Source of the DNA: Clostridia bacterium
GTDB lineage: Bacteria > Bacillota > Clostridia > Oscillospirales > Acutalibacteraceae
NCBI GenBank assembly: GCA_017513195.1
Contig: JAFXGM010000016.1
Location: 1-38,407 of the forward strand
Length of the DNA: 38,407 nucleotides
Direction: 5' to 3'
The notes below the pieces were generated by a model. It was given only the letters and a program-made list of their open reading frames with translations, was not told the origin of the DNA and made no database searches. Positions 403 through 27,591 of this stretch are shown one piece after another (the first letter of the stretch is position 1; each line of letters opens with the position of its first letter). The translations under genes and the position numbers were made by a program.

Positions 403-3400
403 TTAATAACCAAAGTGGTTGCTGTTGTTAAAGTCTTCGGTTTCGTCTGTTACAAGGTCACGTTTGCCATCTTCTTGATATACACGTATATACTCGATAT
501 CAAATGTAATCTTATCACCAGCATCTTTATCTACACCAAGTGTGGTATACATTGATCTACTTTCATTAAGTGCGGTGTAGAATGCGTTATCAAGGAGAAT
601 ATAACCATACTGGTTCCAGGTAGCGGCATCTGTGCCGTTTTGAACGGTAGGATCTGTGCCGAATTTTGACTCATAACCTGTTTTTTCGTTTATCTCAAAG
701 ATTTTCTCGGTTGAAGCTTCCATTACACCGTTTTCGTTAAGGTCGCAATAGATTGCGAGGGTGTAGGTGGTAGCAGTAGCATCCCAAGTAAAGCCATAGG
801 TATAAGTCTTGTGGAGATTTACGTGGCTCTTATCATTGACTGTGGTATTGCCACTACCGCTAGCCGAGATACCAGGGGCAGAAACGGTATTAAAATACAC
901 GTTGTTTGCAGCGTCACTATAGGTATTGCTTGAGCTTGATGTGGTTCCGGTAGAAATAGTAAAGTTCTTTCCAAGCTTTGCCAAAGTTGCACTAAAGGAT
1001 GCTGCAACGCGAGATGTACCTACTCCATAATTATAACTATATTTATAACCACCAGCAAAAAGGCTGCCCGTTCTCGAACTGCTCCAAGTTATGTTTGAAC
1101 TTGGATACAAATCATTATAATTACTATTGTTATAGTTATTAAGATAAGGCTTATCGTTTTGAGAAGTAAACAAGTTAGCGCCTGATACCTTTAGATTGCT
1201 GTTGCTGGTTGCATATCCGCCAGATGTATTATATGTGCACCAGGTCTGATAAGTGCCATTGCTCCAGTTAGGAAGATACAATACGTCGTCGGTCTTATCA
1301 TCGGTTTCATTATTATAAACGTTTGCAGAATAAATTTTGTGAATCGTAGCCTGGAAGTAGTCACGATAATCGCTTGTGCCTGTTGTATTAGCACTTGCCT
1401 GCATAAGCTCTACAATGTCAAACTCAAGGTGAGCTTCTGGTATCTGATACTTGTAAGTGGTAGGCTTTGAACCGTTCATTTTATTAGTAGTACCATCATA
1501 AGCCCAGCTATTATTACCGTTGTTGAGGGTATAAACCTTATCATAAAGTGTGGAATCAATACCACTGTTGGTGGTTCTTGCCGGACCTGTAAGTATCCAC
1601 CAAGCAGGGAAAGCATGACCATCAGATGGCAATGAAGCTCTCATTTCGGCATAACCATACTTAAACAACATAGAGTTAAAGGTCTTGATGCTACCGGGGT
1701 CAACAAATGTATCGTTTGAGTCGATATGACTACCAAAGTCATTTATCTCGTCATTCTCTAGTTCAACGGGCACGTAATCAGGATATTTGGTGGCATTAGA
1801 TTTGTCAGAGGCTGTAACACGCACACCACGATTAATAGTGAGTCGGCCATCATTAACAACCCAAAGGTTATCAGTATCCTTTAGATTGGCAGATTCAAGG
1901 CCAAAGCTTTGACCAGCTTGTTCACTGTCGCTATATGTACCGTCATCGTTCTTTACTTCCGATTCTGTGCGATATTCACTAAGAAGCCACTTATCTCTTG
2001 AGAAGGATGTCTTTGAATCACTTTCAAATTCATCGCCCCAAGCGTAGAAGTAAATCTCGCCTTCATCCTTTATGCCATCGCTATTCTTATCTACCCAACG
2101 ATAAGATTTATACTCATCTGCATTTGCATCGGTAGTAAAGTTATATTGGCCTACGTTATAAGAACCCTTGTTAGCGGTTGCGGAAAGAATAGAGCCGGTA
2201 AAGTTTTCGCTTCTATCAAGAGCATCCTTGTTTTCAAGATATCCCTTTTCTATAAGATCAAGAACAGCCTGCTCAACTGCGGTAAAGCAACCACCGCTAA
2301 TGTTGATAATGTTATTTTCTTTGTCAAACGTTACAGAGTAATCGTCATAAGTTGCTTTAGTAGCATCATCGTCAATTGTGCCAAGAGTTTTTGTAATTAC
2401 TATTGCGTTTGTTTCAGGAATAGTTGCATATTTTTCAACATAATTCTGAGCTTTTGTATCCGGACCTGCTAATTTAACAATATCTACGTCTCCAAGAACT
2501 CCTTCAAGATAGAGCTCTAACTTACGAGCCATATCGTAGGTATCGTTCTCTGCGTAATAAATTTTAACCTGGTTTGTTTCAAATGCACGCCAGAAACCTT
2601 CACGAATGTCATACTCGGTGCCAACCATTTCGCGACGGATGGTTACCAAGTCGGTAATGTTAACCTTGCCATCGTTATTTACGTCGCCGTAAATATTAAG
2701 ATAGCCATCTTCTTTAAGCAGATTTCTGCGAAGCGCAACAACGTCAGTTGTGGTATACATGTTACCAAATTCGCCGTCAGCGTCAACATCAGTTATGGTA
2801 TGAGCCTTGGCAGCAGCAAGATGACGGATAATACCGTCTGGACCCTTATACCACTCGGCATTTGCTGCTGGGTAAAGAGGTCTGTCAATATCTTCTGAGA
2901 AATGTTGTTGCTTGGTAACGGTTTTATCATCATTAACAGTATCAAGTACTATGTAGCTGTTTGATACACAGCTTGAAGCAGCCGCCCAGTTACCAATAAT
3001 TGTACTTTCTGAATTTACAGCGCTACTGCCCTCAACAGAACAGTTTTCAATTGTAGAACCGCTGTTTACAACGCCGGCAATAACACCTGCCGAAGCCGGT
3101 GATACAGAGCCTGCATATGAATTGCGAATGTGTAGATTTTTAACGGTACCGCCGTCAAGAACAGGAATAAGACCTGCGCCTTGTTCATCACTGGCAGAAA
3201 GACCTGTAATTGTATGGTTTGCACCATCTAATGTACCTATAAAAGGAGCATAGTTGTAACGGTCTTTAATATATGTCTGATCTATCCATTGATTGTTTTC
3301 AAGGTCGATATCACAAGTAAGCTTGTAATAAAGCTTTTGACCAAGGTTTTGACCACCAAAAGCAATTGCACGTGCAAGTTGAAGTGCATTCTCAATTAGA

Positions 3401-6327
3401 TATGGGTCAGACTCGGTACCAGAACCGGTAAGGTCATAGCAATAAGAATAGTTACCATTATATGGTCGGCCTAGTGCGGCCTTATCGTTATCAACAATGA
3501 GCTGTGAGTATGCCTGGCCAATATTTCCATAAGCCTTTCCGTTAACCATAGGAATAACGAATTTTTCGTCATTAGTGCTTTCATCCAAAAGGGTCCATGT
3601 GGTGCTCCAGTTAAGCATCGCCATTTCTTCTTTTGTATGTTGCTTATCACCGGTTAATCTGATGGTTTCTTTAAGATAGCTATATATATCGGTAAATTCT
3701 GCGGTATTAGGATCAGCATCAGTGGTGTAACAGTTGTTGATAGATACACCAAAGTTGTGCGCTTGAACCAAACGGTTATAGTAGATTTCTTCTTTCTGTC
3801 CATCGCCGTCAACATCTTTATCAGCAATAATTTGATCGGCTACAACACCGTAGTTGCCAAGTGATACGCAGTTGCTGATTTCAAAGTTGTTGGTGTCTGA
3901 CTGCGAACTCAAGATACCAGCAGCATTGTTTACAGCAAGGTCTGTTCCTGTCATTACAAGGTCAGAGGTATAACCGTCGAACAAGCAGTTTGCTACAGTA
4001 AGTACACCAGTTGTATCGCTTGTTGATACGATACCTGCCGGGCCACCTGCATTTGTTTTATAAATTTGTCTATCATTTCTGAAAACATAATAAAATGTGG
4101 AGGTTGTCGGGTTACCTTTATCATCCAACTTTGTATAGTCTTTGTTAATGAAATAGGTATTGCTATAATACTCTACTGTTTTTGTGTGAGTGGTTGTTGT
4201 TTTGTCCGCATTCAGTTTGTATTCCTTATATATACTACCATTTGCATAAGTGGCAGTTTCTGTTGCTACTATTCCCTTTTCTTCATCATGATATGTATAC
4301 TTTGTTGTAGGATCTCCAGTAAGTGTTACTGTATCGGTTACAATATACGTACCATCTTTTTCGTTATAATTTTTGTTGTAATCTTTATCAGAAGATGTAG
4401 CAAGTTGAAGCGAAACTTTTCTTGAGGAAGAAATATAAGAATTTCTTACATTTACATTAGCGATTGTGTGACAATCGTCATTAATAATAGACCATGTTCC
4501 CAAACGTGTTGTAACAACCGCCGCGTTACCGCTAGCTGTTACATAAGCTGCTTCAAAGTTTACATTTTTAATAGTAGCATTACCCTTTAAACGATAAACA
4601 AAGCCATTACCGTCGGTGCTGATAAGGCCATAAATTGTAACACCGTTACCGTCAAAGTTGCCAAAGAAGCCGTAGTTGTTAGCATTTGTGTTTGAGCCGC
4701 CTGTAGTAGCAGGAGCAGTCAGTGACCATACGTTACCGTTCTGTCCAAGAGCTACTACCTCGTCCTTGGTTTTTACGTCGTTTAAGTAAATTTCTTTAAC
4801 ATCATCGGCTACCTTATAATAATAAGGTTCATAAAAATCCCAAACGGTAGAACCATTTGTTATGGTTCTGTGACTGGTACCACAGTTATATTCGTGCACC
4901 ATTTTATAAAGCTGGTCGGCTGTACGTATAATAAACGGTCTTTCCTTGGTGCCGTCGCCACCGCTATAAAGGCTTGTTGGTGCCGTAATGCTAGGATTAT
5001 AATCAGCTGGCTTAATAGGAGATGGATATCTACCTTCAACCGCAAACCACTCGGTACCCCAAGCGAGTCCCGGCATCCAAGCCATACCAGCCGAACCCTT
5101 AACGGTATTTTTACCATCAAAGAACCTTGTTACCTTTTGAGTGTATGTTGTGGTTCTATCAGTATAAACGTTTGAATAGTTATCCTGAGAAGGTGAGCTG
5201 CTGGAACCAAGAGGTGATGCTCCTAAAACAATGCTATTTGTTACACTAGCAGTAAGAGTAGCAACAACGTTTGTTTTTTCCGCTGAATCATATAAAGTTT
5301 TGGTAAAGTTTTGACCAAAAAGGTTATTAACTACCATATCGTCGCCACTATGATAAACATAGTTATCTCTAATAAAGCAGTTATTAACTTTGGTTGGGTC
5401 ATTACCAGCGGAACCAAACAACACGCCCATTTCAGCAGTGCCTGCTGTACCGGTCTTCAACTCGTGGGTTGTATTATCGTAATACGAATCCTGCTGGTAC
5501 ATATAACAACCAGTTACTTCGATACCTTCGAGTGTAACAGTACCCGTTATCACAGAACCGCCCTTTACATAATAGGTTGTTCCAAATACAGCACCAACAC
5601 GCATGTATGTTTTATAATATGAATTGCGAACAGCAAAATTTGTAAATAAACTGCCCACCGTATCGTATTTATAATCTTTTACTTTGTAACCCTCATCATA
5701 ATAGTTGCCGCCCGGATTTGAACCGCCACCATCAACGTTAGGGAACAAAGCGGCACTTTGTCTACTATAATGATTGCTACCAGATACAACATCAGTACCA
5801 TCGGCATAAAGACCGTAAATTTCTACACCATTACCGTCAAAATCACCACAGAATGCGGTTTCGCCGTTCTGCAACCAGTTGTTTGGGGTGGTACCAGATT
5901 CGATAAGGGATTCAAAATAATCCTTTGTTTCTTGATAGCCATTCATCTCCATAATATCGGGTGTGCCGTTTGAATTGCTATCTTTTGACGCCCATGACTC
6001 TGGCTGCAATATAAATGCCTGGATATCATCTGCAATTTTATATGTCTTGCCCTTTGCTGTTGCGCCAATTTTTGTACAAATGTAGTTAAGTTCTTCTGCA
6101 GTTTCGATTATATAAATTGGATTGCCATATTGGTTTGTACCTTCGGTTTTTGTAGGCGCCGTAGCCGTAGTAGTGTTCCAATATACAATCTTGCCGTTTT
6201 TAGCAGCTTGTGCGCTGGCATCAATATTTACGCCAACGTTTGCAACAAAGAGCGTGCCTATGAGCATTGCAATGCTGAGCACAAGGCTTAAAGCTCTTTT
6301 TGCATTCTTGTTTAAATAACTTTTCAT
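403..6327 (-). CDS. Giant secreted protein: beta-helix-like modules, internal dockerin, C-terminal GH16 glucanase
   Basis: This 1974-residue exported protein probably degrades a beta-glucan or related polysaccharide. A signal peptide (about 1-41) ends at ASAQA. Three beta-helix-like modules follow, starting near residues 45, 455 and 966. They contain GTLDGANHTI- or GDFDGNGVEI-type strands and NCxxxG(N/Y) turns. A type-I dockerin-like pair of calcium loops spans about 1178-1240. The loops are DVDADG (D1180) and DVNNDGKVNITD (D1215). A region rich in alpha/beta character (1240-1400) precedes a GH16 domain at about 1430-1960. It has WGDEF at its start, YGYAEMRASLP, the catalytic EFDIVE (E1635 nucleophile, D1637, E1640 acid/base) and ends IEYIRVYQ, all typical of GH16. 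About 200 residues rich in Asn, Ser and Tyr separate the catalytic strand from TYGFTW, far more than usual. An AGAGAGG ribosome binding site supports the start. Substrate and cohesin partner are unknown. The GH16 call is firm; the dockerin call is good. Confidence 0.9.
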   Translation of the reverse strand: MKSYLNKNAKRALSLVLSIAMLIGTLFVANVGVNIDASAQAAKNGKIVYWNTTTATAPTKTEGTNQYGNPIYIIETAEELNYICTKIGATAKGKTYKIADDIQAFILQPESWASKDSNSNGTPDIMEMNGYQETKDYFESLIESGTTPNNWLQNGETAFCGDFDGNGVEIYGLYADGTDVVSGSNHYSRQSAALFPNVDGGGSNPGGNYYDEGYKVKDYKYDTVGSLFTNFAVRNSYYKTYMRVGAVFGTTYYVKGGSVITGTVTLEGIEVTGCYMYQQDSYYDNTTHELKTGTAGTAEMGVLFGSAGNDPTKVNNCFIRDNYVYHSGDDMVVNNLFGQNFTKTLYDSAEKTNVVATLTASVTNSIVLGASPLGSSSSPSQDNYSNVYTDRTTTYTQKVTRFFDGKNTVKGSAGMAWMPGLAWGTEWFAVEGRYPSPIKPADYNPSITAPTSLYSGGDGTKERPFIIRTADQLYKMVHEYNCGTSHRTITNGSTVWDFYEPYYYKVADDVKEIYLNDVKTKDEVVALGQNGNVWSLTAPATTGGSNTNANNYGFFGNFDGNGVTIYGLISTDGNGFVYRLKGNATIKNVNFEAAYVTASGNAAVVTTRLGTWSIINDDCHTIANVNVRNSYISSSRKVSLQLATSSDKDYNKNYNEKDGTYIVTDTVTLTGDPTTKYTYHDEEKGIVATETATYANGSIYKEYKLNADKTTTTHTKTVEYYSNTYFINKDYTKLDDKGNPTTSTFYYVFRNDRQIYKTNAGGPAGIVSTSDTTGVLTVANCLFDGYTSDLVMTGTDLAVNNAAGILSSQSDTNNFEISNCVSLGNYGVVADQIIADKDVDGDGQKEEIYYNRLVQAHNFGVSINNCYTTDADPNTAEFTDIYSYLKETIRLTGDKQHTKEEMAMLNWSTTWTLLDESTNDEKFVIPMVNGKAYGNIGQAYSQLIVDNDKAALGRPYNGNYSYCYDLTGSGTESDPYLIENALQLARAIAFGGQNLGQKLYYKLTCDIDLENNQWIDQTYIKDRYNYAPFIGTLDGANHTITGLSASDEQGAGLIPVLDGGTVKNLHIRNSYAGSVSPASAGVIAGVVNSGSTIENCSVEGSSAVNSESTIIGNWAAASSCVSNSYIVLDTVNDDKTVTKQQHFSEDIDRPLYPAANAEWYKGPDGIIRHLAAAKAHTITDVDADGEFGNMYTTTDVVALRRNLLKEDGYLNIYGDVNNDGKVNITDLVTIRREMVGTEYDIREGFWRAFETNQVKIYYAENDTYDMARKLELYLEGVLGDVDIVKLAGPDTKAQNYVEKYATIPETNAIVITKTLGTIDDDATKATYDDYSVTFDKENNIINISGGCFTAVEQAVLDLIEKGYLENKDALDRSENFTGSILSATANKGSYNVGQYNFTTDANADEYKSYRWVDKNSDGIKDEGEIYFYAWGDEFESDSKTSFSRDKWLLSEYRTESEVKNDDGTYSDSEQAGQSFGLESANLKDTDNLWVVNDGRLTINRGVRVTASDKSNATKYPDYVPVELENDEINDFGSHIDSNDTFVDPGSIKTFNSMLFKYGYAEMRASLPSDGHAFPAWWILTGPARTTNSGIDSTLYDKVYTLNNGNNSWAYDGTTNKMNGSKPTTYKYQIPEAHLEFDIVELMQASANTTGTSDYRDYFQATIHKIYSANVYNNETDDKTDDVLYLPNWSNGTYQTWCTYNTSGGYATSNSNLKVSGANLFTSQNDKPYLNNYNNSNYNDLYPSSNITWSSSRTGSLFAGGYKYSYNYGVGTSRVAASFSATLAKLGKNFTISTGTTSSSSNTYSDAANNVYFNTVSAPGISASGSGNTTVNDKSHVNLHKTYTYGFTWDATATTYTLAIYCDLNENGVMEASTEKIFEINEKTGYESKFGTDPTVQNGTDAATWNQYGYILLDNAFYTALNESRSMYTTLGVDKDAGDKITFDIEYIRVYQEDGKRDLVTDETEDFNNSNHFGY

Positions 6328-6339
6328 ACAAAACCTCTC

Positions 6340-6428
6340 TTTTCTAATGTGTTAGAAAATTTTTGAAACTGAAAGACGCTTTTCGTCTTTCACATTGGTT
6401 TAATATCTATTTAACATTTTTCAATGTT
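6340..6428 (-). other. Three RNA hairpins in the leader of the GH16 gene
   Basis: Between the microprotein gene and the GH16 gene there are three stem-loops. AACATT/AATGTT lies at 6413-6428, with a GAAA tetraloop on the transcribed strand. GAAAGACG/CGTCTTTC with a 5-nt loop lies at 6371-6391. The perfect 8-bp TTTTCTAA/TTAGAAAA with a 4-nt loop lies at 6340-6359, just before the ribosome binding site. None has a U-tract placed for termination, and no convincing promoter is visible here. They may therefore act in a shared transcript, for example in mRNA stability, processing or control of initiation. Confidence 0.6.
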
Positions 6429-6447
6429 TATTACGATTTAATTCACC

Positions 6448-6561
6448 TTATTCTTCTTCAAACATAGGTACGAGAATACCATCTTCACCTTCATCAAAGC
6501 TTGTAACAATGATATCATCAAGTTTTAAATCGTAGATCTCAATTTTTGCTTTTTCAAACAT
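6448..6561 (-). CDS. 37-residue acidic microprotein between the two giant secreted genes
   Basis: The gene starts at the ATG at 6561-6559 and stops at 6450-6448. An AAGGAGA ribosome binding site lies 7 nt upstream, stronger than those of many larger genes here. The peptide starts MFEKAKIEIYDLKLDD, then has IIVTS, an acidic glycine-containing stretch (FDEGEDG) and the ending VPMFEEE. It has 12 acidic and 3 basic residues, no signal peptide and no membrane segment. The pattern of an IEI strand, a DDII-(T/V)TS turn and an acidic Gly-containing tail recalls short peptides seen in many gut Clostridia, some suspected to be precursor peptides, but that is from memory and not proven. It is probably cotranscribed with both neighbours. 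Function unknown. Confidence 0.75.
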   Translation of the reverse strand: MFEKAKIEIYDLKLDDIIVTSFDEGEDGILVPMFEEE

Positions 6562-6590
6562 AATATTTCTCCTTCAATTTATTTTAACTT

Positions 6591-6630
6591 TACTGTCAGG
6601 CGGTTGCCACACAGCGACCGCCCGACTGTA
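6591..6630 (-). other. Strong intercistronic hairpin after the 2175-residue protein gene
   Basis: The arms at 6591-6607 and 6614-6630 form a 17-pair stem around a CACACA loop, with mismatches only at A6598/C6623 and T6594/T6627 plus one G-U pair. It begins 10 nt past the stop codon of the cohesin-like gene. The minus strand is A-rich rather than U-rich after the stem, so it is a poor terminator. It is better explained as a 3'-end stabiliser or processing site that sets expression of the first gene above that of the genes downstream. Confidence 0.65.
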
Positions 6631-6640
6631 TCATCGTTAC

Positions 6641-9600
6641 TTAGTTGCCGTAACGTGAGGTAAGTGCTTGTGAATAATATACAAGTGCTTTCATTGCTTC
6701 AGCACATACTTCATAGTAGCTGCAAGGTGTCTTCTTGTTTGCATTTGTAAATGCATTTGCAGCACCTTTAGCACTATAAGTACCGCAATCAACACTTTCG
6801 TCGCCGTAATTAATTACAACGCTTACACCATTTACCAAGCCTTGGATAGGCAAATCGGTAAACTGGTATGTGTGTTTCTTGCTCTTTGCAAGGTTAGACC
6901 AGCCATCAGCCTTGAGGTCTTTACCTTCTTCGTAAGCGGGAACGCTAACAGTTTTTGTCTTTGGGTCTCCGCCTACTGTATAGGTGAATGTAACCGTAAT
7001 ATCATCACGATTGGTTTTGTAGTCTTCACCAAAGTTAAATATAAATGTCAAATATGGATTAGCTCTAAGGTTTACTGAGTTTGCATAGAAACCAAAGTTT
7101 TCTGTGCCACCGGTTGGTGAAACGTTAAACTTGTCAGGCACAAGTGCATCATATTCTGCCTTGTAAGCACTTGGTAAAGCGCTAGCCTTGCTGAAGCCCG
7201 GGTAATCGCCTACAGTGCCAACATACCAAACCTCTTTGTCGTTTGCAGCGTTGAGTGCGCTTACAATATCAGCAGCCTTGCTACCCTTTAACTCGTTAAC
7301 GTTATCAACTGTTGTAACGGTTGAATACGATGTTGCCTGATCGGTGTAAACGTTAGAGAAGCAAGCATTGTAGTTGGTAGGGATAGTGAATCTATTACTA
7401 CCAGCTGAAACTCCCAAAATAATGCTGTTCTTAAGACTGTAGCTACTTGCACTATTACCGTAAACAGCACCAATCAAACCAGCTTTAACGTTTGTGTCAT
7501 CGTTGTCATAGTAAGCTTCACTATTGCTAACGATGCAATTATTTACACTCAACTTTGATTCGGTAAGATTTGCTGCCAGAAGCGCACAGTTGGTTGCGCC
7601 GCCGCTTCTTTCGGTAAGGTCAGGTGTACCTATATGACAGTTTTCAACCTTACAATTTTCAATTGTTATTGTTTCAATAGCAAAATCGCCATCATCTACG
7701 GTAGTTTTTGTCGTATCACCGGTCTGCTTTGCAATAGCCTTATCGCAGTGAGAAACTATCGCAGCAGCACGGTGGTCTCCGCCCGCTGTGCTAACATGAA
7801 TATATGAGTTTTTAACAGTAACATTCTTAACAGCCGACTCGCCGTCCATATCACCAAACAAGCCGCCGTAGCCCGTACCATTCATATAGATACCGTAAAT
7901 TTCCACGCCATTACCGTCAAACACGCCACAGAAGGAATCGTGAGTCGTTGCATCAATTGCGGCCCAACCACCAGTACCTGCCCAAGTTACAAAACCTGTC
8001 ACACCGGTTTCACCAGCAAAGTACTTGCGTGTTTCTTCTAAATCTTGAAGTTCTAGAATTTCCGAGTAGTTAGAACTCTGCAATACAATTTTACTGATAC
8101 CGTCAGCAATTCTAAAGTGTTTTGGACCAGTGAAGATTGTATCATAGGTTGTGCCTTCAGCGTTGTAGAACTGTGATACTGTTGGACCTGCAGACGCAAG
8201 ATAAGCAAGCTCTTCAGCAGAGTCGATAATGATTGGGTTTTCTGCTGTACCGTTCTGCGTGCTATAGCTGTGCCATTCATCATCTAAAACAGTGTCGCTA
8301 TTCTTCTTGCCGTCCCAATAAAGTGTTTTTCCCTCATTTGCGATGTATCCGCTTTGAACAGGGGTTGGGTAAGCATTATTGTTTATCATCCAACCGCTTT
8401 CCCAATCAAGAGCAAGTGTTGTTGCAGCGTTTGCACCCTTTAGACTTTCAAGGTCGGTAATTTGTTTAACTTTATTTTCCGCATAAGAAAGCACAAAAGG
8501 ATCCTTAGAAGAATCAGCGTTAGGCCAAGAAATGTTTACGCTTATCTGGTCGGTATATACGTTACTAAACGCATCGTCTCTAACCGTACCATTTTGATAG
8601 TTTTGCTTTGTAGAACTATAAGGTTCAACACTCAAAACAATTGAATTTGAATATTTATTAGTCGAGTTAGGTGCTTGACCTAACCACGCGAGAGTGTTAC
8701 CTTCAACAGCCCACCCAGCAGTATTTATATTGCCCTGAGTATCGTAGTAGTAGGTATCCTTTACGGTTTGACCTGCAACACTTGTAGCACCATCAGTACG
8801 GTCAAAGCCAAAGTTATAAGCAATCATATCGCTCACAAGACAATTACTAATCGTCATAAGATTTGATGTCGCACTACCCACTACAGCACCCATACTGTTA
8901 TAAACAGTCGTGTTAACAACAGTCATATCTGTCTTTCCGCTTTGACGGTAAGAAATTGTGCAACAATTTTGGATAACACAATTTTCAATAGTGTTTGTAT
9001 AACTAGAACCACCCGTAGACGCATCGGCAATAATACCGCCTGAATAACCTCTTATGTAAGAACTCTTAACATTAAGGTTTTTAATGGTTGCGCCCTTTAG
9101 AACGCCAAACAGACTTGGGTTGCCGCCATTTTTATAGAAACCATAAATTGAAACACCGTTGCCATCAAAATGGCCCATAAATGGAGTCGAAGACGAGTTA
9201 GTGGTTATATCCCAGTTAGTCCATGTAACATCTTTTCCATTGACATTAACTACCCTAGTGTTAGATGCAGCACCATAGCCACCGTCGTCTTTGTAAGTTA
9301 CTGTCTTATTAGGATCGTCAAACCACCTCATAGTGCCTTGTTCATCAAGGCTCATAAGCTCATCTATACCGCCGGCACTATCAACTGCATATTGAGGCTG
9401 TAAAACAAATGCCTTGATGTTGTCGGCTACTTTATAATATTTCTGTGTAGTTGCCTTGCCTTCCTTTAATATCCAAAGCAAGTTCTCGGGTGTTTCGATA
9501 ATGATAGGATCATTTACCGAGTCGCCTGAACCCTTTGTTGGTTCAACACCTTTACCGGAACCATTATAATACACAATCTTTGTCTTTTGTGTGGGTACAT

Positions 9601-12600
9601 CGTCTTCTGCATAAAGTGCGTTTGTTGCTGCGTCTGCATAGTTAAGCAGAGCTGCTGCAACCTTTTTGTCAGCAATTTTAATAGATTCTTCTGTGCCATC
9701 AGCGTATATTGCCTCACCGTTGAGTACGCTTTCTGCGTATTGAGCAAGAGCAATCTGATGTGATTTGCCCCATTCGGTAACAGCACCGTTGGTAGCAACA
9801 ATTGTTGGTACCCAAATGGTGTTTATGTCACGTGAAGAGAGGTTGCCGATGCTAAATACCTTAGCATTTTCGCCAAGCTCTGCAATTATTTCAGGATTTG
9901 TTACGTCGTTAGCTTCAAGCTTGAGGAAGCTGGTATAACCTGAATTGTCGGTTTTACCTACGTAAAGAACGTAGTCATAGCCCTCTTGACCTTCTGCGTA
10001 GAAATTAAAGTCAAAAGAACCGTCGTTTTTATATGTTGTGTTATATGCAACCAAGCCAAATGCGCCGTTAGAGGTGGTAGCAACACGTGTTTCATCAAGA
10101 GCTGTAAGTGTTGGGTAGCCGCCCATATTAGCGTACCAATCGGTACCCCACTTAAGGTCTGGCATAGCTGTCTTCTGAGCCGCAGCACTTGAAAGATCGT
10201 CGGTTGTAATAACGGTTACATATTTAGCCCATTTTTCAACAGTTCCTTCAGATGCATTTGCTGAAGCAACCAATTCTGAATTGGTATAAACATTTTCAAA
10301 GCAGAATGGCAACGCCCAACCTGTACCGTTATGATAAGCGCCATAAGGTAAACAGTCTAAAGCGATGGTATCGATAACCATAGCTTTATAACACCATCCG
10401 TACGTTGCGTTTTTATACACATAATCAGGATTAGCATCAACATAATCTTGCGGAGCAGTCAGATTATTGTGAATATCTGCGCGCAAAGTCATATCATAAG
10501 TTGTGCTATCAATACTATATTTAGCGTCATTGCCGTAAACCAAACAATTTTTTATAAGTATAGTATCGTTTCCGCATTTGCCCGAAATAATACCTGCACG
10601 GGTATGCTCGTTTGCTGCTTTAAAAATGTAATTGTTTATAACAGCTACATTTTCCACAACAACAAGGCCACTACCGCTAGTGTCGGAACCGCCATTAAAG
10701 CATCGGCCAATCAAACCACCAAAGTCAAAGTTGTCTTTTGTTGTGTGATTTAAATAAGAATTTGTAAGTGTAAGATTTTTAATAGTAGCACCTGTATCTA
10801 CAATTGGGAACAAACCGGCTACAGCTGTAGATGCATAGTTAGAACACAAACCATAAATTTCTACACCGTTACCGTCGAAATAACCTGCAAACGGATCAGA
10901 ATTCCAGCTTGTTTGATACCACTGATAAGGTGATGAAATTTTGCTTGCGTCGCTAAAATATGACTTAACCTGTGCTGCATCTTCAAGGTCAATTATTGAC
11001 TGAATATATTTTGCGTTTTGAAGAACCATTGTATCAATGCCGTCAGCAACCTTGAAGTGCTTGTTTGCTGTTGCAGCAACACCTGCTCTGGTGAGATAAT
11101 AAAGCTCGGCAACAGAGTCGATGATGATTGGGTTGTCAATACTACCGTCCTGTGTGCTGTAGCTGTGCTTTTCATCCGTGAGGTTAGTGTCTTTGGTGTT
11201 ATCCCAACCGATAACACTTCTACCTGTGCTTGCAATTGACGGATATTCGCCGTCTGCACCGTAGCTCCAGGTAGTACCCCAGTCAAGATTAGAGCAATTG
11301 TTAACTGCATTAACACCTAAAACACTATCGTCTGTGATTGAGAACATAACTGCAGCAGCAGTTCCATCCACACCGTAGTTAATTGTTGTCCAAGCAGTTG
11401 CGACATTAACACCATCTACTTTTTCTACTTTTGTTTGCCATTTCATGCTTAACGGAGCGTCGGTATAAACGTTGCTGTAAAGTGAACGAGTCGACCTGTT
11501 TGCAGCAAATCCGTTATTTATATCATTTTCACCGGCGCCGTTAGGAAGATAAGGTGTAGTGCCTAAAATTATAGAATTTTTAACGGTTCCGCCACGATGA
11601 GAAATACCAACAACACTAATACCATGCGCAAAATCGGTTTGAAGTGTAGCATTACTGTTGCCATAAACCAAGCAGTTGTTCAAATTTACAGTGGCTCTTC
11701 CTGCCCAGGTGCTGCCATATTTCATATATGAATCTAAGCGACCGACAATAAGACCATTCAATCGAACAGAATTAGCGGGACCTGTATTTGCGTACATATA
11801 GTTATTTACTACGGAGCAATTTTTAATGTTTGCGGCCCAGTCATAATGTTCGTTTGCTCTCGCAATGCTTTTACCGATAATAAAGCCCATGCCAAAAGTG
11901 CCGGTAAGATGAGAGTTTTTAAGGTTAATATTAGAAATTGTTATAGTTTTAGCACTTATAGCTGCAGAAGTGTTGATTTTTGAGGTATCGTTCAAGAGAG
12001 TATCCTTTAAATCATTATCTACAACATAAACATATGGGAAAAGGCCAGCAGCATCGTTGTTGCCATCTGAAAGTGTATCATATAGACCGTAGAAGGTAGC
12101 ACCGTTACCGTCAAAGTTACCTGCAAAAGCAAAGGTTGCTGCCCTACCCTCTGATACGTTTTGTGATACGGTTGAATCCCATTTGTAACCGCCATTTTCA
12201 GTGAAGTATGTATTAACTTCAGCTGCGGTTTTAAGATCCATAATATCTAAAGCTGCTTTTTCAGACTGCAATACAACGTTGTCGATGCCATCGGCTAACT
12301 TAAAGTATTTATCTTCCGTAGCGTCGATACCTGCCATTGTAGCAAGATAATAAAGCTCTTCTACGCTGTTAATGATGATAGGATGCTCGGCAGAACCGTC
12401 CTGCTCGCCGTCGGCATCGTCAATAAGATCGTCATCATATGCGCCCTCTGCGCTCCAAGCGATTGTTGTACCATTCATAGGCTCGGTTGAAGGAACGAGC
12501 TGATAACCAAACTTTTCACCGCAAAGGGTACAGTAAGAATTTTCATATACTGTATAACCGTTTATAGTATCGGTGTTGATAGGGTCACCCTTTACAGCGA

Positions 12601-13168
12601 TAACGTGGTCGCAGCTTGCCTTGATAGAGCCTGTTGCAACGGTATCACACTCGTGTATAGCGAAATCGCCACCAAGTTCAATCTCTTTTACAGAAACATC
12701 GTATGTTGCACCCTGTTCTGCGGTGCCACCAACGAAACCGTATGTAAACTCGAGAACTACGGTAGAATATGCCTCTGAATTTTGGCTTTCTACTATAACG
12801 CCCTTTTTGTCGCTTGAAATTTCAAAAGCAAGGTCGTTAACATCTACTGCCGAACCGTCAACCAAAGCTGTGCTTGCAAAGCCATCAGCTGTAGCTACAG
12901 CCTTTATTGACTGAAGGCTGAGGTCTGCGTGACTGTCAAGCGCAAACTTAATTGCACTAAAGCCCTCAGCGGCAACTTCGTCCACCGCGGTAAATGCAAG
13001 GTAAATGGTAGCCTTGTCTAAATCTTTAGACGCAGAGCCTACTGACCACTTAGCGCAGCAATTTGTATCTGCAGCGCCGGCTGTGATGAGGCAACCAAAA
13101 ACCGTGGTGAAGCAAATTGCCAATGCCAAAACGACAGAGAGTAATTTGTTCATAGATTTTTTTGTCAT
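6641..13168 (-). CDS. Giant secreted modular protein with N-terminal cohesin-like domain and four beta-helix-like modules
   Basis: This 2175-residue exported protein has no recognisable catalytic domain. The signal peptide covers about 1-32 (core LLSVVLALAICFTTVFGC); VFGC at 23-26 is a poor lipobox, so signal peptidase I cleavage near AGA is more likely. Residues 33-185 resemble a cohesin or related jelly-roll: strands ATIYLAFTAVDEV and FSAIKFALDS, then VVLEFTYGF and GATYDVSVKEIEL. A short CDH...YCTLCGE segment (185-217) could bind zinc. Four modules begin near 228, 645, 1210 and 1615. Each has NPIIIxSxEELxYL, then FK(V/I)ADGI..VLQ, FDGNGVEIYG, NNCxVYGN, SNVYTD and a final WGxxWxxxxxxYP. Two related beta-rich spacer domains lie at about 1045-1200 and 2010-2175, ending in ALLNYADAA and ALVYYSQAL. 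The closest visible relative is the GH16 protein. Roles to consider are scaffold, adhesin or glycan-binding protein. AAGGAG lies 11 nt before the ATG. Confidence 0.85.
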   Translation of the reverse strand: MTKKSMNKLLSVVLALAICFTTVFGCLITAGAADTNCCAKWSVGSASKDLDKATIYLAFTAVDEVAAEGFSAIKFALDSHADLSLQSIKAVATADGFASTALVDGSAVDVNDLAFEISSDKKGVIVESQNSEAYSTVVLEFTYGFVGGTAEQGATYDVSVKEIELGGDFAIHECDTVATGSIKASCDHVIAVKGDPINTDTINGYTVYENSYCTLCGEKFGYQLVPSTEPMNGTTIAWSAEGAYDDDLIDDADGEQDGSAEHPIIINSVEELYYLATMAGIDATEDKYFKLADGIDNVVLQSEKAALDIMDLKTAAEVNTYFTENGGYKWDSTVSQNVSEGRAATFAFAGNFDGNGATFYGLYDTLSDGNNDAAGLFPYVYVVDNDLKDTLLNDTSKINTSAAISAKTITISNINLKNSHLTGTFGMGFIIGKSIARANEHYDWAANIKNCSVVNNYMYANTGPANSVRLNGLIVGRLDSYMKYGSTWAGRATVNLNNCLVYGNSNATLQTDFAHGISVVGISHRGGTVKNSIILGTTPYLPNGAGENDINNGFAANRSTRSLYSNVYTDAPLSMKWQTKVEKVDGVNVATAWTTINYGVDGTAAAVMFSITDDSVLGVNAVNNCSNLDWGTTWSYGADGEYPSIASTGRSVIGWDNTKDTNLTDEKHSYSTQDGSIDNPIIIDSVAELYYLTRAGVAATANKHFKVADGIDTMVLQNAKYIQSIIDLEDAAQVKSYFSDASKISSPYQWYQTSWNSDPFAGYFDGNGVEIYGLCSNYASTAVAGLFPIVDTGATIKNLTLTNSYLNHTTKDNFDFGGLIGRCFNGGSDTSGSGLVVVENVAVINNYIFKAANEHTRAGIISGKCGNDTILIKNCLVYGNDAKYSIDSTTYDMTLRADIHNNLTAPQDYVDANPDYVYKNATYGWCYKAMVIDTIALDCLPYGAYHNGTGWALPFCFENVYTNSELVASANASEGTVEKWAKYVTVITTDDLSSAAAQKTAMPDLKWGTDWYANMGGYPTLTALDETRVATTSNGAFGLVAYNTTYKNDGSFDFNFYAEGQEGYDYVLYVGKTDNSGYTSFLKLEANDVTNPEIIAELGENAKVFSIGNLSSRDINTIWVPTIVATNGAVTEWGKSHQIALAQYAESVLNGEAIYADGTEESIKIADKKVAAALLNYADAATNALYAEDDVPTQKTKIVYYNGSGKGVEPTKGSGDSVNDPIIIETPENLLWILKEGKATTQKYYKVADNIKAFVLQPQYAVDSAGGIDELMSLDEQGTMRWFDDPNKTVTYKDDGGYGAASNTRVVNVNGKDVTWTNWDITTNSSSTPFMGHFDGNGVSIYGFYKNGGNPSLFGVLKGATIKNLNVKSSYIRGYSGGIIADASTGGSSYTNTIENCVIQNCCTISYRQSGKTDMTVVNTTVYNSMGAVVGSATSNLMTISNCLVSDMIAYNFGFDRTDGATSVAGQTVKDTYYYDTQGNINTAGWAVEGNTLAWLGQAPNSTNKYSNSIVLSVEPYSSTKQNYQNGTVRDDAFSNVYTDQISVNISWPNADSSKDPFVLSYAENKVKQITDLESLKGANAATTLALDWESGWMINNNAYPTPVQSGYIANEGKTLYWDGKKNSDTVLDDEWHSYSTQNGTAENPIIIDSAEELAYLASAGPTVSQFYNAEGTTYDTIFTGPKHFRIADGISKIVLQSSNYSEILELQDLEETRKYFAGETGVTGFVTWAGTGGWAAIDATTHDSFCGVFDGNGVEIYGIYMNGTGYGGLFGDMDGESAVKNVTVKNSYIHVSTAGGDHRAAAIVSHCDKAIAKQTGDTTKTTVDDGDFAIETITIENCKVENCHIGTPDLTERSGGATNCALLAANLTESKLSVNNCIVSNSEAYYDNDDTNVKAGLIGAVYGNSASSYSLKNSIILGVSAGSNRFTIPTNYNACFSNVYTDQATSYSTVTTVDNVNELKGSKAADIVSALNAANDKEVWYVGTVGDYPGFSKASALPSAYKAEYDALVPDKFNVSPTGGTENFGFYANSVNLRANPYLTFIFNFGEDYKTNRDDITVTFTYTVGGDPKTKTVSVPAYEEGKDLKADGWSNLAKSKKHTYQFTDLPIQGLVNGVSVVINYGDESVDCGTYSAKGAANAFTNANKKTPCSYYEVCAEAMKALVYYSQALTSRYGN

Positions 13169-13482: not shown

Positions 13483-13977
13483 CTATTCAATATAAAAGCA
13501 ATCTTCGTCCCATTTTTGAGGATTGGTGTCAATATAATTCCAAATTTTCATATAATCCGTTTCGTCTCGAATTATATGGTCGTGGAAAGAAGTTTGCCAA
13601 ATTTTTACATCAGTATTTAGCAAACGACATTTGTGAGTTGTAATCGATTTAAACGTGCAAACCAAGTCCGACAACGTAGGGCAGGGGCTTGCTCCTGCCG
13701 TTTTGCTTTTAATGACAACTATTGCGTGAATATGATTGGGCATTATTACATATTTATCTATTTTAACTTCTTGATATCGTTTTTCCAAATCTTGTAGTTC
13801 TTGCTCGGCAATCTTACCAAACGGGTATAATTTGTTTTCGGCAGGAGCAAGCCCCTGCCCTACAATATTTGAAAATAAATTTTTGCGTTTATTTGTACAT
13901 ATTATTATGAAATAATAACCGTCTTGGCTGTAATTATAACCCTTTAATCGTGTTGGTTTTCTTTTGGGTAATTCCAT
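13483..13977 (-). CDS. REP-associated tyrosine transposase (RAYT, TnpA_REP/Y1 family)
   Basis: This 164-residue single-strand DNA transposase-like protein is of the IS200/IS605-related Y1 class, which nicks DNA at palindromic REP elements. The N-terminus MELPKRKPTRLKGY is typical of clostridial RAYTs. The metal-binding HUH motif is HIH at 82-84 (in MPNHIHAIV). The probable catalytic tyrosine is Y148 in WNYIDTNP. Length is normal for the family. Two peptides, VGQGLAPAE (about 39-47) and TAGASPCPTL (about 93-102), are encoded by the two inverted copies of a REP-like palindrome, so the gene contains its own likely substrates in frame. The ATG sits 1 nt beyond the stop of the helicase-loader gene and has only a weak ribosome binding site, so translation may be coupled. 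A terminator follows at once. Probably functional; no stop or frameshift is seen. Confidence 0.93.
   Translation of the reverse strand: MELPKRKPTRLKGYNYSQDGYYFIIICTNKRKNLFSNIVGQGLAPAENKLYPFGKIAEQELQDLEKRYQEVKIDKYVIMPNHIHAIVVIKSKTAGASPCPTLSDLVCTFKSITTHKCRLLNTDVKIWQTSFHDHIIRDETDYMKIWNYIDTNPQKWDEDCFYIE
13676..13700 (+). repeat. REP-like palindrome, copy 1 (inside RAYT)
   Basis: This 25-nt unit reads GTAGGGCAGG, then GGCTTGCTCCTGCCG. Its core folds on itself (GGCAGGGGC/GCTCCTGCC with one G-U pair). It is the exact reverse complement of the copy at 13839-13863. It is translated on the minus strand as part of the TAGASPCPTL stretch of the RAYT. Confidence 0.85.
13839..13863 (-). repeat. REP-like palindrome, copy 2 (inside RAYT)
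   Basis: This is an exact inverted copy of 13676-13700, 138 nt away. It is translated as part of VGQGLAPAE in the RAYT. The two copies in opposite orientation resemble a BIME-type REP pair. No further copies were seen elsewhere in the window. Confidence 0.85.
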
Positions 13978-25632: not shown

Positions 25633-27591
25633 TCACTTTGTATTGAACCAAACTGCCATCTTACTCTCTTCGGTCCAAAGCTTACCCGCCGAGGCATAAT
25701 CGGTAACGGTAAAGTATCCACCGTCGGTGGTGGGGATTTGAGCCTCAAACTCACAAGCGTAGGGCGCTGTTTTATTTTCAGAATATGCTATATCAATAAA
25801 TCCGTCATCGTTTACCTTTACGCTTACGGCATCGTCAACGCTGTAGCCCAAACGATTTTCCTGCGCCAACATCAAGGGTCCACGCTGAATTGCGATATGA
25901 TTTTTTGTAGATGGATGCTCGCGGTCAAAGGTAGGTATCATACAGTTTGCGCCCCAAATCACCTTGTTCATAAGAACCTGACTGCCGTAAGGAATGGGGT
26001 TAATTGCACGAGCACGCATATCAAAACAAATTTCGATGGTGTCGCCCTTTTTCCATTTGCGATATATGCCAATATAACCCTTTGTTGCGTTAATAACATT
26101 TCCGTTTACGTGTGCTACCGTGTTTTCGCTCCACTCGGGATTTCTTAAAAGAATTTCGAAATCGTCGGCGCAATCGGTATCAACGGTGATTTTTACCTTT
26201 TCGCCTACAGGATATGCTGTATCAAAGGTGAGCTTTACGGTTTTGCCGTTTGTAAGCGGCTGAGCCACCTCGCCCTTTTCATAAAGGTTTACAACAATAC
26301 CCGAACGGCTTGTAAGCACTGCAGATTTCATAGCAACACCAATGCCTGCCGAGCCAATACAGATACAACAGCCGTAGTATCTACCGTCTTTAAATGGTTT
26401 AAGGCCGCCCGTACCATTGCCACGAATGCCGGGGGTAAGTGGACTGTAGCTGTCAAACGGCATTGGCACCATTGTAAGCTCGGGATACTGTTTTGCCGCC
26501 GTGGTATCAATAGCGCCGTCGGTATTAACCGCACCCAAATAGCCGTTATAAAGTGAACGCTCAAACGCGTCCATATATTTTGAATCACCGGTTATGAGAT
26601 TAAGCTGATAGAAAAACTGCATTAGTGTGACGGTAACACAGGTTTCTTGTGCGCGTGGGTCGCCGCGGTCGGGGTTTGCCTGACGCACGGTCGAGTGATC
26701 AAATAGCTCGTGTGTGCAACCCGCCGAGCCTATTACTGTAAAATCATCCTCTAAAATGCGGTTTGCAAAATTGATAATTGCGGTTAGGTGCTTCTTGTTT
26801 TGACGAATTCGGTAATACTCTAAAAGCCCTACAAAGCAAGAGGTCATTTCATAAGCCTTTGTTACAGGGTACTGATATGGGTGCAGTTCGTTACGGTATG
26901 CGAGTTCAAATACGTTTTCAACGTCCATACCACCACAAACAACAATATACTCGGCAAAATCTAAATACTTTTCTTCTTTCGTGAGTGAATAAAGACGAAC
27001 GATAGGCTCTAAAATAGATGAAGAATTAAGTCCGCGCCAATGGCGTGTAAGACGGGTTATAAGAAGCTTGCCCTCAGCTTGCCAGCCGATACGCTTTGTA
27101 AGATAATCCACCTGTTTTTTCATACAGTCGATTACTTTTTGATTAAACTCTTTATCGTCGCAAATTTCTACAAAATACTGCATACCCAAAAGCACGTATT
27201 TGCGGCTCCAAAGATCCCAGCCGTCGTATTCTTTTTCTACGCTATAGGTGCTGATGCGTCCAAGCTCATCCTGACTTTCTACCAAATCGTTAACGGTGGC
27301 TTTAAGAACATTAAAAAGCTCTTTGTCTTTTGAATAGCTATATACAAAACACGCACCGCGCATCATTTTTCCCCAAAATTCACCGCGCCAACCGGCGTCG
27401 TGGTCATCGGGAGTGCCACGGAATTGCTCTACGAATAATCGCCACATATCCGCGTCGCGAAGCTGCATATCGGTAATAAGGTTTAGGCTACGATGGAGCC
27501 AACCCTCATACTTTGCACTGCGGTCTATATCAAAAAACTTATCTGTACTGTTCCGGGGAAAATTGGCAGTCAAATTATCATATATTCTCAT
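25633..27591 (-). CDS. GH127-family (DUF1680) beta-L-arabinofuranosidase-like hydrolase
   Basis: This 652-residue enzyme is predicted to release L-arabinofuranose from beta-linked glycosides. An (alpha/alpha)6 barrel covers most of the chain. The zinc-thiolate site of the family is present: E316 and C318 in QETCVT, C408 and C409 in YGCCIC. C408 matches the nucleophile Cys417 of the characterised HypBA1. E295 in HELFD is a possible acid/base. The C-terminal third is a beta-sandwich (EILLRNPEWSEN, KKGDTIEICFDM). There is no signal peptide, so it is cytosolic. GGAGG lies 8 nt before the ATG, and a good promoter precedes it. Related GH families (GH146, GH142) are alternatives; the family-level call is strong. 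Confidence 0.92.
   Translation of the reverse strand: MRIYDNLTANFPRNSTDKFFDIDRSAKYEGWLHRSLNLITDMQLRDADMWRLFVEQFRGTPDDHDAGWRGEFWGKMMRGACFVYSYSKDKELFNVLKATVNDLVESQDELGRISTYSVEKEYDGWDLWSRKYVLLGMQYFVEICDDKEFNQKVIDCMKKQVDYLTKRIGWQAEGKLLITRLTRHWRGLNSSSILEPIVRLYSLTKEEKYLDFAEYIVVCGGMDVENVFELAYRNELHPYQYPVTKAYEMTSCFVGLLEYYRIRQNKKHLTAIINFANRILEDDFTVIGSAGCTHELFDHSTVRQANPDRGDPRAQETCVTVTLMQFFYQLNLITGDSKYMDAFERSLYNGYLGAVNTDGAIDTTAAKQYPELTMVPMPFDSYSPLTPGIRGNGTGGLKPFKDGRYYGCCICIGSAGIGVAMKSAVLTSRSGIVVNLYEKGEVAQPLTNGKTVKLTFDTAYPVGEKVKITVDTDCADDFEILLRNPEWSENTVAHVNGNVINATKGYIGIYRKWKKGDTIEICFDMRARAINPIPYGSQVLMNKVIWGANCMIPTFDREHPSTKNHIAIQRGPLMLAQENRLGYSVDDAVSVKVNDDGFIDIAYSENKTAPYACEFEAQIPTTDGGYFTVTDYASAGKLWTEESKMAVWFNTK

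Follow-up and report, generated by a model that had tools for sequence, protein, structure and literature searches.

Cohesin-dockerin systems offer the closest described parallels to the locus reported here. In the cellulosome pairs of Ruminococcus flavefaciens and the amylosome of R. bromii a cohesin-fold domain and a dockerin are likewise carried on separate secreted proteins. Internal dockerins are reported in 32 proteins of R. flavefaciens FD-1, and dockerin calcium-binding loops are described as usually 12 residues long, with loops one residue longer also known (PMC2930009); the R. bromii protein Sas20 is described as docking to a scaffoldin that bears a sortase sequence (PMC9112005). Single cohesins with a C-terminal transmembrane (TM) anchor have been described in Lachnoclostridium sp. 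MSJ-17 (PMC11557425), and one-to-one cohesin-dockerin pairing has been discussed for glycosidases of Clostridium perfringens (PMC12997984). The mucinolysome of Limousia is likewise a gut-bacterial cohesin-dockerin assembly of glycan-degrading enzymes (PMC12997984). None of the openly available papers listed in a literature search describes the gene cassette considered below.

The window, a stretch of 38,407 nucleotides from a Clostridia bacterium (contig JAFXGM010000016.1), contains two giant ORFs on the minus strand, P0002 (6641..13168; 2175 residues) and P0001 (403..6327; 1974 residues), delineated by ORF listing and domain profiles. Both had been called secreted, and each indeed begins with a hydrophobic signal-type N-terminus, as read from the sequence. 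P0002 comprises, in order, a signal region, a divergent cohesin, a CxH...CxxC module and four repeated modules, together with conserved middle and C-terminal domains, whereas P0001 consists of repeated modules, an internal dockerin, an alpha/beta-like domain, a GH16 domain and a conserved tail. Between them, also on the minus strand, lies a gene (6448..6561) for a 37-residue peptide beginning MFEKAKIEIYDLKLDDIIVTS, which recovered no match in Pfam or PHROGs and a single, irrelevant match in NCBIfam (E 0.13). It is plausible that P0002 and P0001 form one operon: they share a strand, with a promoter-like site upstream (13359-13331) and a terminator-like hairpin with a T-run behind P0001 (365..396; listed for the plus strand, the minus strand folding into the same hairpin). 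Stable hairpins are also present in both intergenic gaps of the three-gene set. Across the region such sites show no clear excess, with 45 promoter-like sites against a shuffle mean of 38.2 (sd 5.6) and 11 terminator-like sites against 10.9.

The reading we favor, with a probability of roughly 0.6, is that P0001 is a secreted glycan-cutting protein kept on the cell through cohesin-dockerin binding, its partner being the P0002 cohesin, anchored single cohesins encoded elsewhere in the genome (the C5 and C23 types), or both. The repeated modules of the two giants would reach outward and bind glycan. In this reading the domain content, the conserved gene set and the homology of the P0002 N-terminus to cohesins are established, whereas docking, attachment to the cell, catalysis and the role of the modules are inferred. 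Such attachment would explain why P0001 has no anchor of its own: as noted earlier for both giants, no LPXTG- or SLH-type family is listed for either among the Pfam matches at E<=1.

The sharing of a repeated module between the two proteins, also proposed in the first-pass annotation, was confirmed by profile searches. A profile built from three P0002 modules recovered those three and a fourth in the same protein (7.7e-15), placing the modules at residues 263-382, 680-790, 1221-1355 and 1645-1771 (7856..12382, minus strand). Against P0001 the module profile yielded three matches, at 7e-20, 3e-11 and a weak 0.004, of which two define clear shared modules at residues 73-178 and 495-574 (4606..6111, minus strand); the best single match in shuffled P0001 scored -0.2 bits. 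Judged from its sequence, the module gives the impression of a beta-helix fold. One PHROGs match of P0002 (6.6e-16, function not annotated) falls within a repeated module.

The dockerin of P0001 occupies residues 1175-1242 (2602..2805, minus strand; Pfam match 2623-2691). Its scores against PF00404 (24.8, 30.1 and 34.5 bits for three query lengths) all exceed the cut-off of 22.9, although the best-matching stretch covers only profile positions 1-23, that is, the second repeat. Reading of the loops from the sequence showed that loop 2 is canonical and that loop 1 (2743-2790) has 16 residues, four over the usual 12; in the ten relatives whose loop 1 was read out, it has 14-15 residues. Thus, P0001 carries a variant dockerin rather than one with two 12-residue loops. 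A weak Pfam Cohesin match elsewhere in P0001 (5137-5565, E 0.03) lies below the cut-off and was taken as a chance hit.

C-terminal to the dockerin is a conserved domain (residues 1251-1364; 2236..2577, minus strand), recognized by a family profile and having no Pfam match, which we take to resemble the small N-terminal domain found in some glycosidases. It is followed by a divergent GH16 domain (residues 1428-1951; 475..2046, minus strand) and by a C-terminal tail conserved among relatives (RD(I/L)VT..T..FNN.NHFGY; 406..474, minus strand). At E<=1, a profile of the GH16 region matched 17 PDB sequences, the best of them at 2.7e-4 and four below 0.02. Sixteen bear names of GH16, laminarinase, glucanase or carrageenase type; the remaining entry is named simply 'Hydrolase'. 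The catalytic motif of GH16 enzymes, ExDxxE, is present as EFDIVE (1408-1425) and occurs in 16 of 19 relatives. The GH16 assignment made earlier is thus borne out for a divergent member, with no GH16 family listed in a Pfam search of P0001; the accompanying label 'glucanase' is too narrow, as the GH16 family acts on several substrates. A structure model of the dockerin and GH16 regions had a mean pLDDT of 30, too low for fold assignment.

In P0002, residues 33-185 (12614..13072, minus strand) had been called cohesin-like from strand order only. Comparison of a profile of ten such N-termini with one of 30 genus cohesins using HHalign gave a probability of 83.7 and a score of 36.6, with a co-linear alignment over nearly the full domain length; the best of 200 shuffles scored 19.1 and 32 decoy comparisons gave at most 16.3. 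An eight-member profile gave a probability of 41 and a score of 28.2, and none of 100 shuffles exceeded 17.3. The cohesin set was built from six seeds, the C47 cohesin of this genome among them, and also includes a G033 cohesin that is matched both by the P0002 N-domain profile (4.3e-5) and by Pfam Cohesin (1.0e-7). The AF2 model of the domain (mean pLDDT 82.9) is predicted to be a jelly-roll of the cohesin class, and Foldseek matched it to cohesins at 1.1e-5 to 1.4e-4, with 5lxv, 6kgf, 5n5p, 2vo8 and 2xdh among the matches at E<1e-3; query TM-scores to cohesins were at most 0.50, with rmsd of 4-7 A. The N-terminal domain is therefore supported, by profile and by model, as a divergent cohesin. 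In the search of the genome with Pfam Cohesin (PF00963) at E<=10 it is absent from the four listed matches, with three other proteins above the cut-off. A PDB sequence search with the N-domain profile returned just four myelin P2 matches (E 0.36-0.69), which we regard as chance. Since only one cohesin is recognizable in P0002, this protein would serve not as a scaffold but as an anchor or adaptor with a single docking site.

The cohesin is followed by a CxH...CxxC module (residues 186-228; 12485..12613, minus strand), similar versions of which also occur behind the cohesin in the C5 protein and in two G033 proteins, including the doubly matched one; its zinc-ribbon-like pattern suggests that it may bind zinc. 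Upstream, Cys26 (13091..13093, minus strand) lies in a lipobox-like sequence of the PS51257 type. This form is seen in all ten close relatives of P0002 and in none of ten relatives of P0001; a stricter Gram-positive form is seen in five of the ten, and four of nine more distant relatives have a lipobox-like pattern. The hydrophobic stretch of P0002 continues beyond Cys26 up to an ordinary cleavage-like site. Family profiles further define a conserved middle domain (residues 1026-1180; 9629..10093) and a conserved C-terminal domain (residues 2011-2175; 6644..7138), both on the minus strand.

The genome, which is 97.8% complete, encodes three further Pfam cohesins that appear to be membrane-anchored, as well as two further Pfam dockerins. 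The C5 protein has a signal peptide, a cohesin and a C-terminal TM segment, and the C23 protein an N-terminal TM segment and a cohesin; C47 is less certain as a third, being above the Pfam cut-off in one search and unlisted in another at E<=0.001. P0001 thus has candidate partners beyond P0002. The 'miniature two-component scaffold' hypothesized in the first-pass annotation finds partial support, being weakened by these additional domains and by the occurrence of a C5-type anchored cohesin wherever P0001-type proteins are found. That annotation had also passed over the 37-residue ORF, the extra loop-1 residues of the dockerin and Cys26, as well as the further cohesins and dockerins.

A search with the P0001 sequence alone found no relatives, and one with an alignment of the dockerin and GH16 regions recovered 19 loci, all in metagenome-assembled genomes titled Clostridia or Oscillospiraceae; those titles that name a host refer to sheep, goat, roe deer, water buffalo or yak gut. 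Among 70 congeneric genomes (species), full-length P0001-type proteins occur in nine, which look like one clade (their C5 proteins being 47-67% identical to the copy in the window's genome), and relatives of the 37-residue peptide (E<1e-9) in the same nine. The P0002 N-domain is strongly matched in eight of these and nowhere else among the 70; the exception, G088, has a P0001-type protein away from P0002 and no close P0002 N-domain. The complete three-gene set recurs at 11 loci in six genomes, and solitary P0001-type proteins away from P0002, which speak against the favored reading, are found at L136, L140, L141, L142 and L147. In G018, 20 of whose 32 dockerins were inspected, a [R/K]D[Y/V/F]-type motif is seen in 18 and a further one is like that of the C47 gene; the last was not assigned by the pattern, which catches canonical loops only and is uninformative on loop length.

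These distributions bear on which cohesin P0001 might use. We see about an even chance that the partner is an anchored C5- or C23-type cohesin and a somewhat smaller one that it is P0002, the two not being exclusive. A stricter version, that P0001 docks solely on C5 and C23 and that the P0002 N-domain descends from a cohesin with a lost or changed partner, can be held only tentatively. It draws, as does the favored reading, on elimination: the only Pfam dockerins of this genome at E<=0.001 are those of P0001, its C15 paralogue and a protein whose neighboring gene encodes its own cohesin, so that C5 and C23 have no visible partner other than P0001-type dockerins. Dockerins missed by Pfam would weaken this argument, and the P0001-type dockerin of G032 is one that Pfam misses, the one Pfam match of G032 lying elsewhere. 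Co-occurrence points the same way: C5-type cohesins are present in 9/9 and C23-type in 8/9 genomes with P0001-type proteins. Among genomes with few dockerins C5-type cohesins, defined by a match running from query residue 30 or earlier to at least 240 and with one weak case included (G089, 1.2e-9), occur in 7/7 with and 4/27 without such proteins; these counts may miss some weak copies and are uncorrected for shared ancestry. Further, the P0002 N-domain is more variable (25-37% identity to the window copy) than C5 (47-67% to this genome's copy). Against exclusive docking on C5 and C23 stands the adjacency of P0002- and P0001-type genes at the 11 loci, and C5 is also found in 21 of 34 genomes that have at least four dockerins and no P0001-type protein, hence is not specific to P0001.

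The fold of the P0002 N-domain admits a different role, namely in adhesion: it may belong to the collagen-binding (Cna/DEv-IgG) class and be directed to a host or plant ligand instead of a dockerin. Cna-type structures head the Foldseek matches by E-value (7lgr 5.2e-6, 1amx 6.8e-6, 2okm 7.2e-6), and pilin domains match as well, but the target TM-scores of these three (0.53-0.56) fall below that of the best cohesins (0.63, the highest among the 50 matches listed). The profile comparison, made against genus cohesins, ties the domain to cohesins, as does the G033 protein matched from both sides; we consider this role unlikely. Cna-type entries were absent from the matches of the PDB sequence search. 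Still less probable is that the giants are independent adhesins or glycan binders with modules shared through duplication, a relic dockerin and no meaning to their pairing. In favor of this, the shared modules imply a common origin of the two proteins, and calcium positions of loop 1 are partly lost in L056, L074 and L139, a loss that also counts against the favored reading; however, a relic should decay faster than is seen, as a family profile, built from five of the 19 P0001-type proteins, recognizes the dockerin region in all 19. Going beyond the favored reading of P0001 as a cell-held glycan cutter, the P0002 N-domain could be a new type of cohesin for the long-loop dockerin, which together with the micropeptide would give one clade of gut Clostridia a specialized surface apparatus of three parts, operating alongside the usual anchored cohesins, and P0002 might be attached to lipid through Cys26; this extension we hold to be doubtful.

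If this pairing is real, the cohesin-dockerin toolbox would gain an orthogonal pair made up of a cohesin that escapes Pfam and a dockerin with a long first loop, and enzyme display in gut Clostridia would extend to genomes with few dockerins and no visible scaffoldin. As Pfam cohesins occur in 65 and dockerins in 69 of the 70 congeneric species, the genus is suited to the study of how cellulosome-like display grows and shrinks. In comparison with cellulosomes, P0002 has one divergent, Pfam-unlisted cohesin and is itself a giant of repeated modules, the P0001 dockerin has a first loop four residues longer, and no multi-cohesin protein is found among the three Pfam cohesin proteins of the genome. 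Limousia, by contrast, has tandem-cohesin scaffoldins, and the ten GH families that its description lists for MGYG000005496 do not include GH16 (PMC12997984). The Cna-type collagen-binding domains share a fold class with the P0002 N-domain. Unlike TM-anchored single-cohesin or pairwise systems, the locus combines adjoining giants and a micropeptide in a conserved set, and it seems to be a novel form of an established means of tethering enzymes to the cell.

The genome of the window (1.88 Mb, 97.8% complete, 47 contigs, with the window forming the entire contig C12) encodes two giant secreted proteins, P0002 (2175 aa; 6641-13168) and P0001 (1974 aa; 403-6327), as in the first-pass annotation; both genes lie on the minus strand. 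Between them lies a conserved ORF for a 37-aa peptide (6448-6561), with the pattern F.KA.IEI..L...DIIVTS followed by an acidic tail. A profile built on three P0002 modules recovered a fourth in the same protein. P0001 has two strong matches to this profile and a weak third (0.004), and in a shuffled control nothing rose above zero bits. Residues 1313-1383 of P0002 (9019-9232) match a PHROGs phage-protein family of unassigned function (phrog_30905; 6.6e-16). The repeated module shared by the two giants also occurs on contig C7 in a 767-aa protein (L025:1166-4501) with a sortase-signal-like tail (SPSTGD followed by a TM segment), adjoined by a sortase-like gene of 273 aa.

The N-terminal domain of P0002 had been proposed to be cohesin-like from its strand pattern. 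An AlphaFold2 model based on eight sequences (mean pLDDT 82.9, pTM 0.73) was compared with the PDB using Foldseek: by E-value Cna-type collagen-binding domains lead (5.2e-6), with cohesins just behind (Ruminococcus flavefaciens 5lxv, 1.1e-5; the CaCohA2 complex 6kgf, 1.9e-5; and others) and pilin domains ranking in between. Among the best 50 of the 77 matches at E<=0.001 the highest target TM-scores, 0.63, belong to cohesins, and query TM-scores do not exceed 0.50. Since this left the family of the domain undecided, a profile-profile comparison was made with 30 cohesins of the genus. HHalign with an 8-member domain profile gave a probability of 41 and a score of 28.2, against 17.3 for the best of 100 shuffles and 13.2 on reversal. 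With a 10-member profile it gave a probability of 83.7, an E-value of 8.1e-6 and a score of 36.6 over positions 20-135 versus 16-131. The best of 200 shuffles in the latter case scored 19.1, and the best decoys 16.3 (six named domains), 14.6 (20 windows of the P0002 alignment) and 16.2 (6 windows of the P0001 alignment). Matches of the cohesin profile to the ten domains one by one are weak, with 7/10 above the inclusion line and the window's own domain at E 0.004 in this search of ten sequences. A protein of genome G033 is matched by both the P0002 profile (4.3e-5, part of which may be owed to a CxH...CxxC module) and Pfam Cohesin (1.0e-7). Thus, while a Pfam search does not call the domain a cohesin, the controlled HHalign scores and the cohesins among the structural matches strengthen the original guess, and sequence comparison places it among the cohesin homologues as a divergent one, which may still bind a dockerin.

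The dockerin of P0001 passes the Pfam cut-off through its second repeat. Its first loop, DVDADGEFGNMYTTTD, exceeds by four residues the 12 that are usual for a dockerin calcium loop (PMC2930009); in ten relatives with a printed loop the excess is three residues in eight and two in two. A family-built profile, constructed partly on 5 of the same proteins, found the dockerin region in 19/19 P0001-type proteins. The GH16 assignment, missed by the Pfam search of P0001, is backed by PDB profile matches, by conservation of the domain at both its start and its end, and by an ExDxxE motif in 16/19 relatives. The same 16 bear FNNxNHF of the strongly conserved C-terminal tail FNNxNHFGY (406-474), in which small variants also end.

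The order P0002-type gene, peptide, P0001-type gene recurs at 11 loci in 6 genomes (three in G010, two each in G000, G018 and G091, one each in G032 and G087), counting all those where the three genes are at least partly readable. Several are broken or interrupted by contig ends, and at L054 and L061 the P0001-type gene is seen through its N-terminal part only; both the cohesin domain and the dockerin are readable at 5/11 (the window, L053, L056/L057, L074 and L075). In five of the genomes (G000, G010, G018, G032, G087) one cassette sits a few kilobases from the NFACT-family gene that also neighbors it in the window. The second copy in the window's genome, on contig C15 (L008:3-7340), opens inside a P0002 paralogue with a cut 5' end, followed by the peptide and a P0001 paralogue. 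The peptide is also found 3' of P0002-type genes with no P0001-type neighbor in the fetched stretch (L024, L062, L064, L134, L135), implying that its association is with P0002 and not with P0001. Its relatives are found in 9/70 congeneric genomes at E<1e-9 and 20/70 at E<=0.01. Weaker relatives also lie 3' of secreted proteins of smaller size, both in other species (L109, L113) and in one that has P0001 (L126). Both gaps hold stable RNA hairpins (6562-6640, z -4.7; 6328-6447, z -3.1), with no clean T-run 3' of either on the coding strand. Directly upstream of P0002 is an IS200-like (Y1) transposase gene (13483-13977), for which the syntenic locus L074, with ~300 bases between the P0002-type gene and the next large ORF, has no space. 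Glycoside hydrolase genes lie in the right half of the window, one of GH127 type (25633-27591) and one of rhamnosidase type (29317-31188).

The first-pass annotation had envisaged the two giants as a pair possibly joined by a cohesin-like domain and a dockerin. Its observation is borne out, but exclusive pairing is not, and the anchored cohesins encoded elsewhere in the genome are strong rival candidates as partners for P0001. Pfam Cohesin matches three proteins of the genome, their TM segments being judged by eye: one on C23 (176 aa, N-terminal TM), one on C5 (421 aa, with a signal peptide and a TM at the C-terminus) and one on C47 (484 aa, C-terminal TM), the last passing the cut-off in one search and absent from the listing of another. 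Two further dockerins are found, in the C15 paralogue of P0001 and in the gene adjoining that on C47. P0001 and P0002 are hence not alone, and the C5 and C23 proteins are candidate anchors for P0001. As for a possible anchoring of P0002 itself, a lipobox-like pattern of the PS51257 form ends at Cys26, and the hydrophobic stretch runs on beyond it to an ordinary cleavage-like site. This form is seen in 10/10 close P0002 relatives and 0/10 P0001 relatives, a stricter Gram-positive form in only 5/10 of the former, and a lipobox-like pattern in only 4/9 more distant P0002-type proteins.

Of the 70 genomes, 65 have Pfam cohesins and 69 have dockerins. With the P0001-type C-terminal region, 17 matches are full-length and score above 500 bits, all in 9 genomes, while 39 genomes show some match at E<=0.001, mostly a short one. 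The P0002 N-domain is detected in 10 at E<=0.001, and the 8 strong cases (E <= 1.3e-40) all fall within those 9. All 9 genomes with P0001-type proteins encode a C5-type cohesin together with the cysteine module, and 8/9 encode the C23-type. In the eight besides the window's own, the C5-type protein is 47-67% identical to the copy in the window's genome. Among the 34 genomes with <=3 dockerin matches, the C5-type is present in 7/7 with P0001-type proteins versus 4/27 without (Fisher p 6e-5, a statistic that ignores ancestry), and it also occurs in 21/34 genomes with at least 4 dockerins and no P0001-type protein. This distribution is as expected if C5 displays any dockerin proteins of its species, P0001 included; common ancestry could alternatively be the source of the co-occurrence.

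No description of the P0002-peptide-P0001 cassette was found in the literature searched. Individual elements have precedents in earlier reports: cohesins that occur singly with a TM anchor (PMC11557425), dockerins that lie internally or vary in loop length (PMC2930009), and cohesin–dockerin systems of gut bacteria (PMC12997984; PMC9112005). The locus is classed as a variant form of cohesin–dockerin display, with the docking itself being putative.
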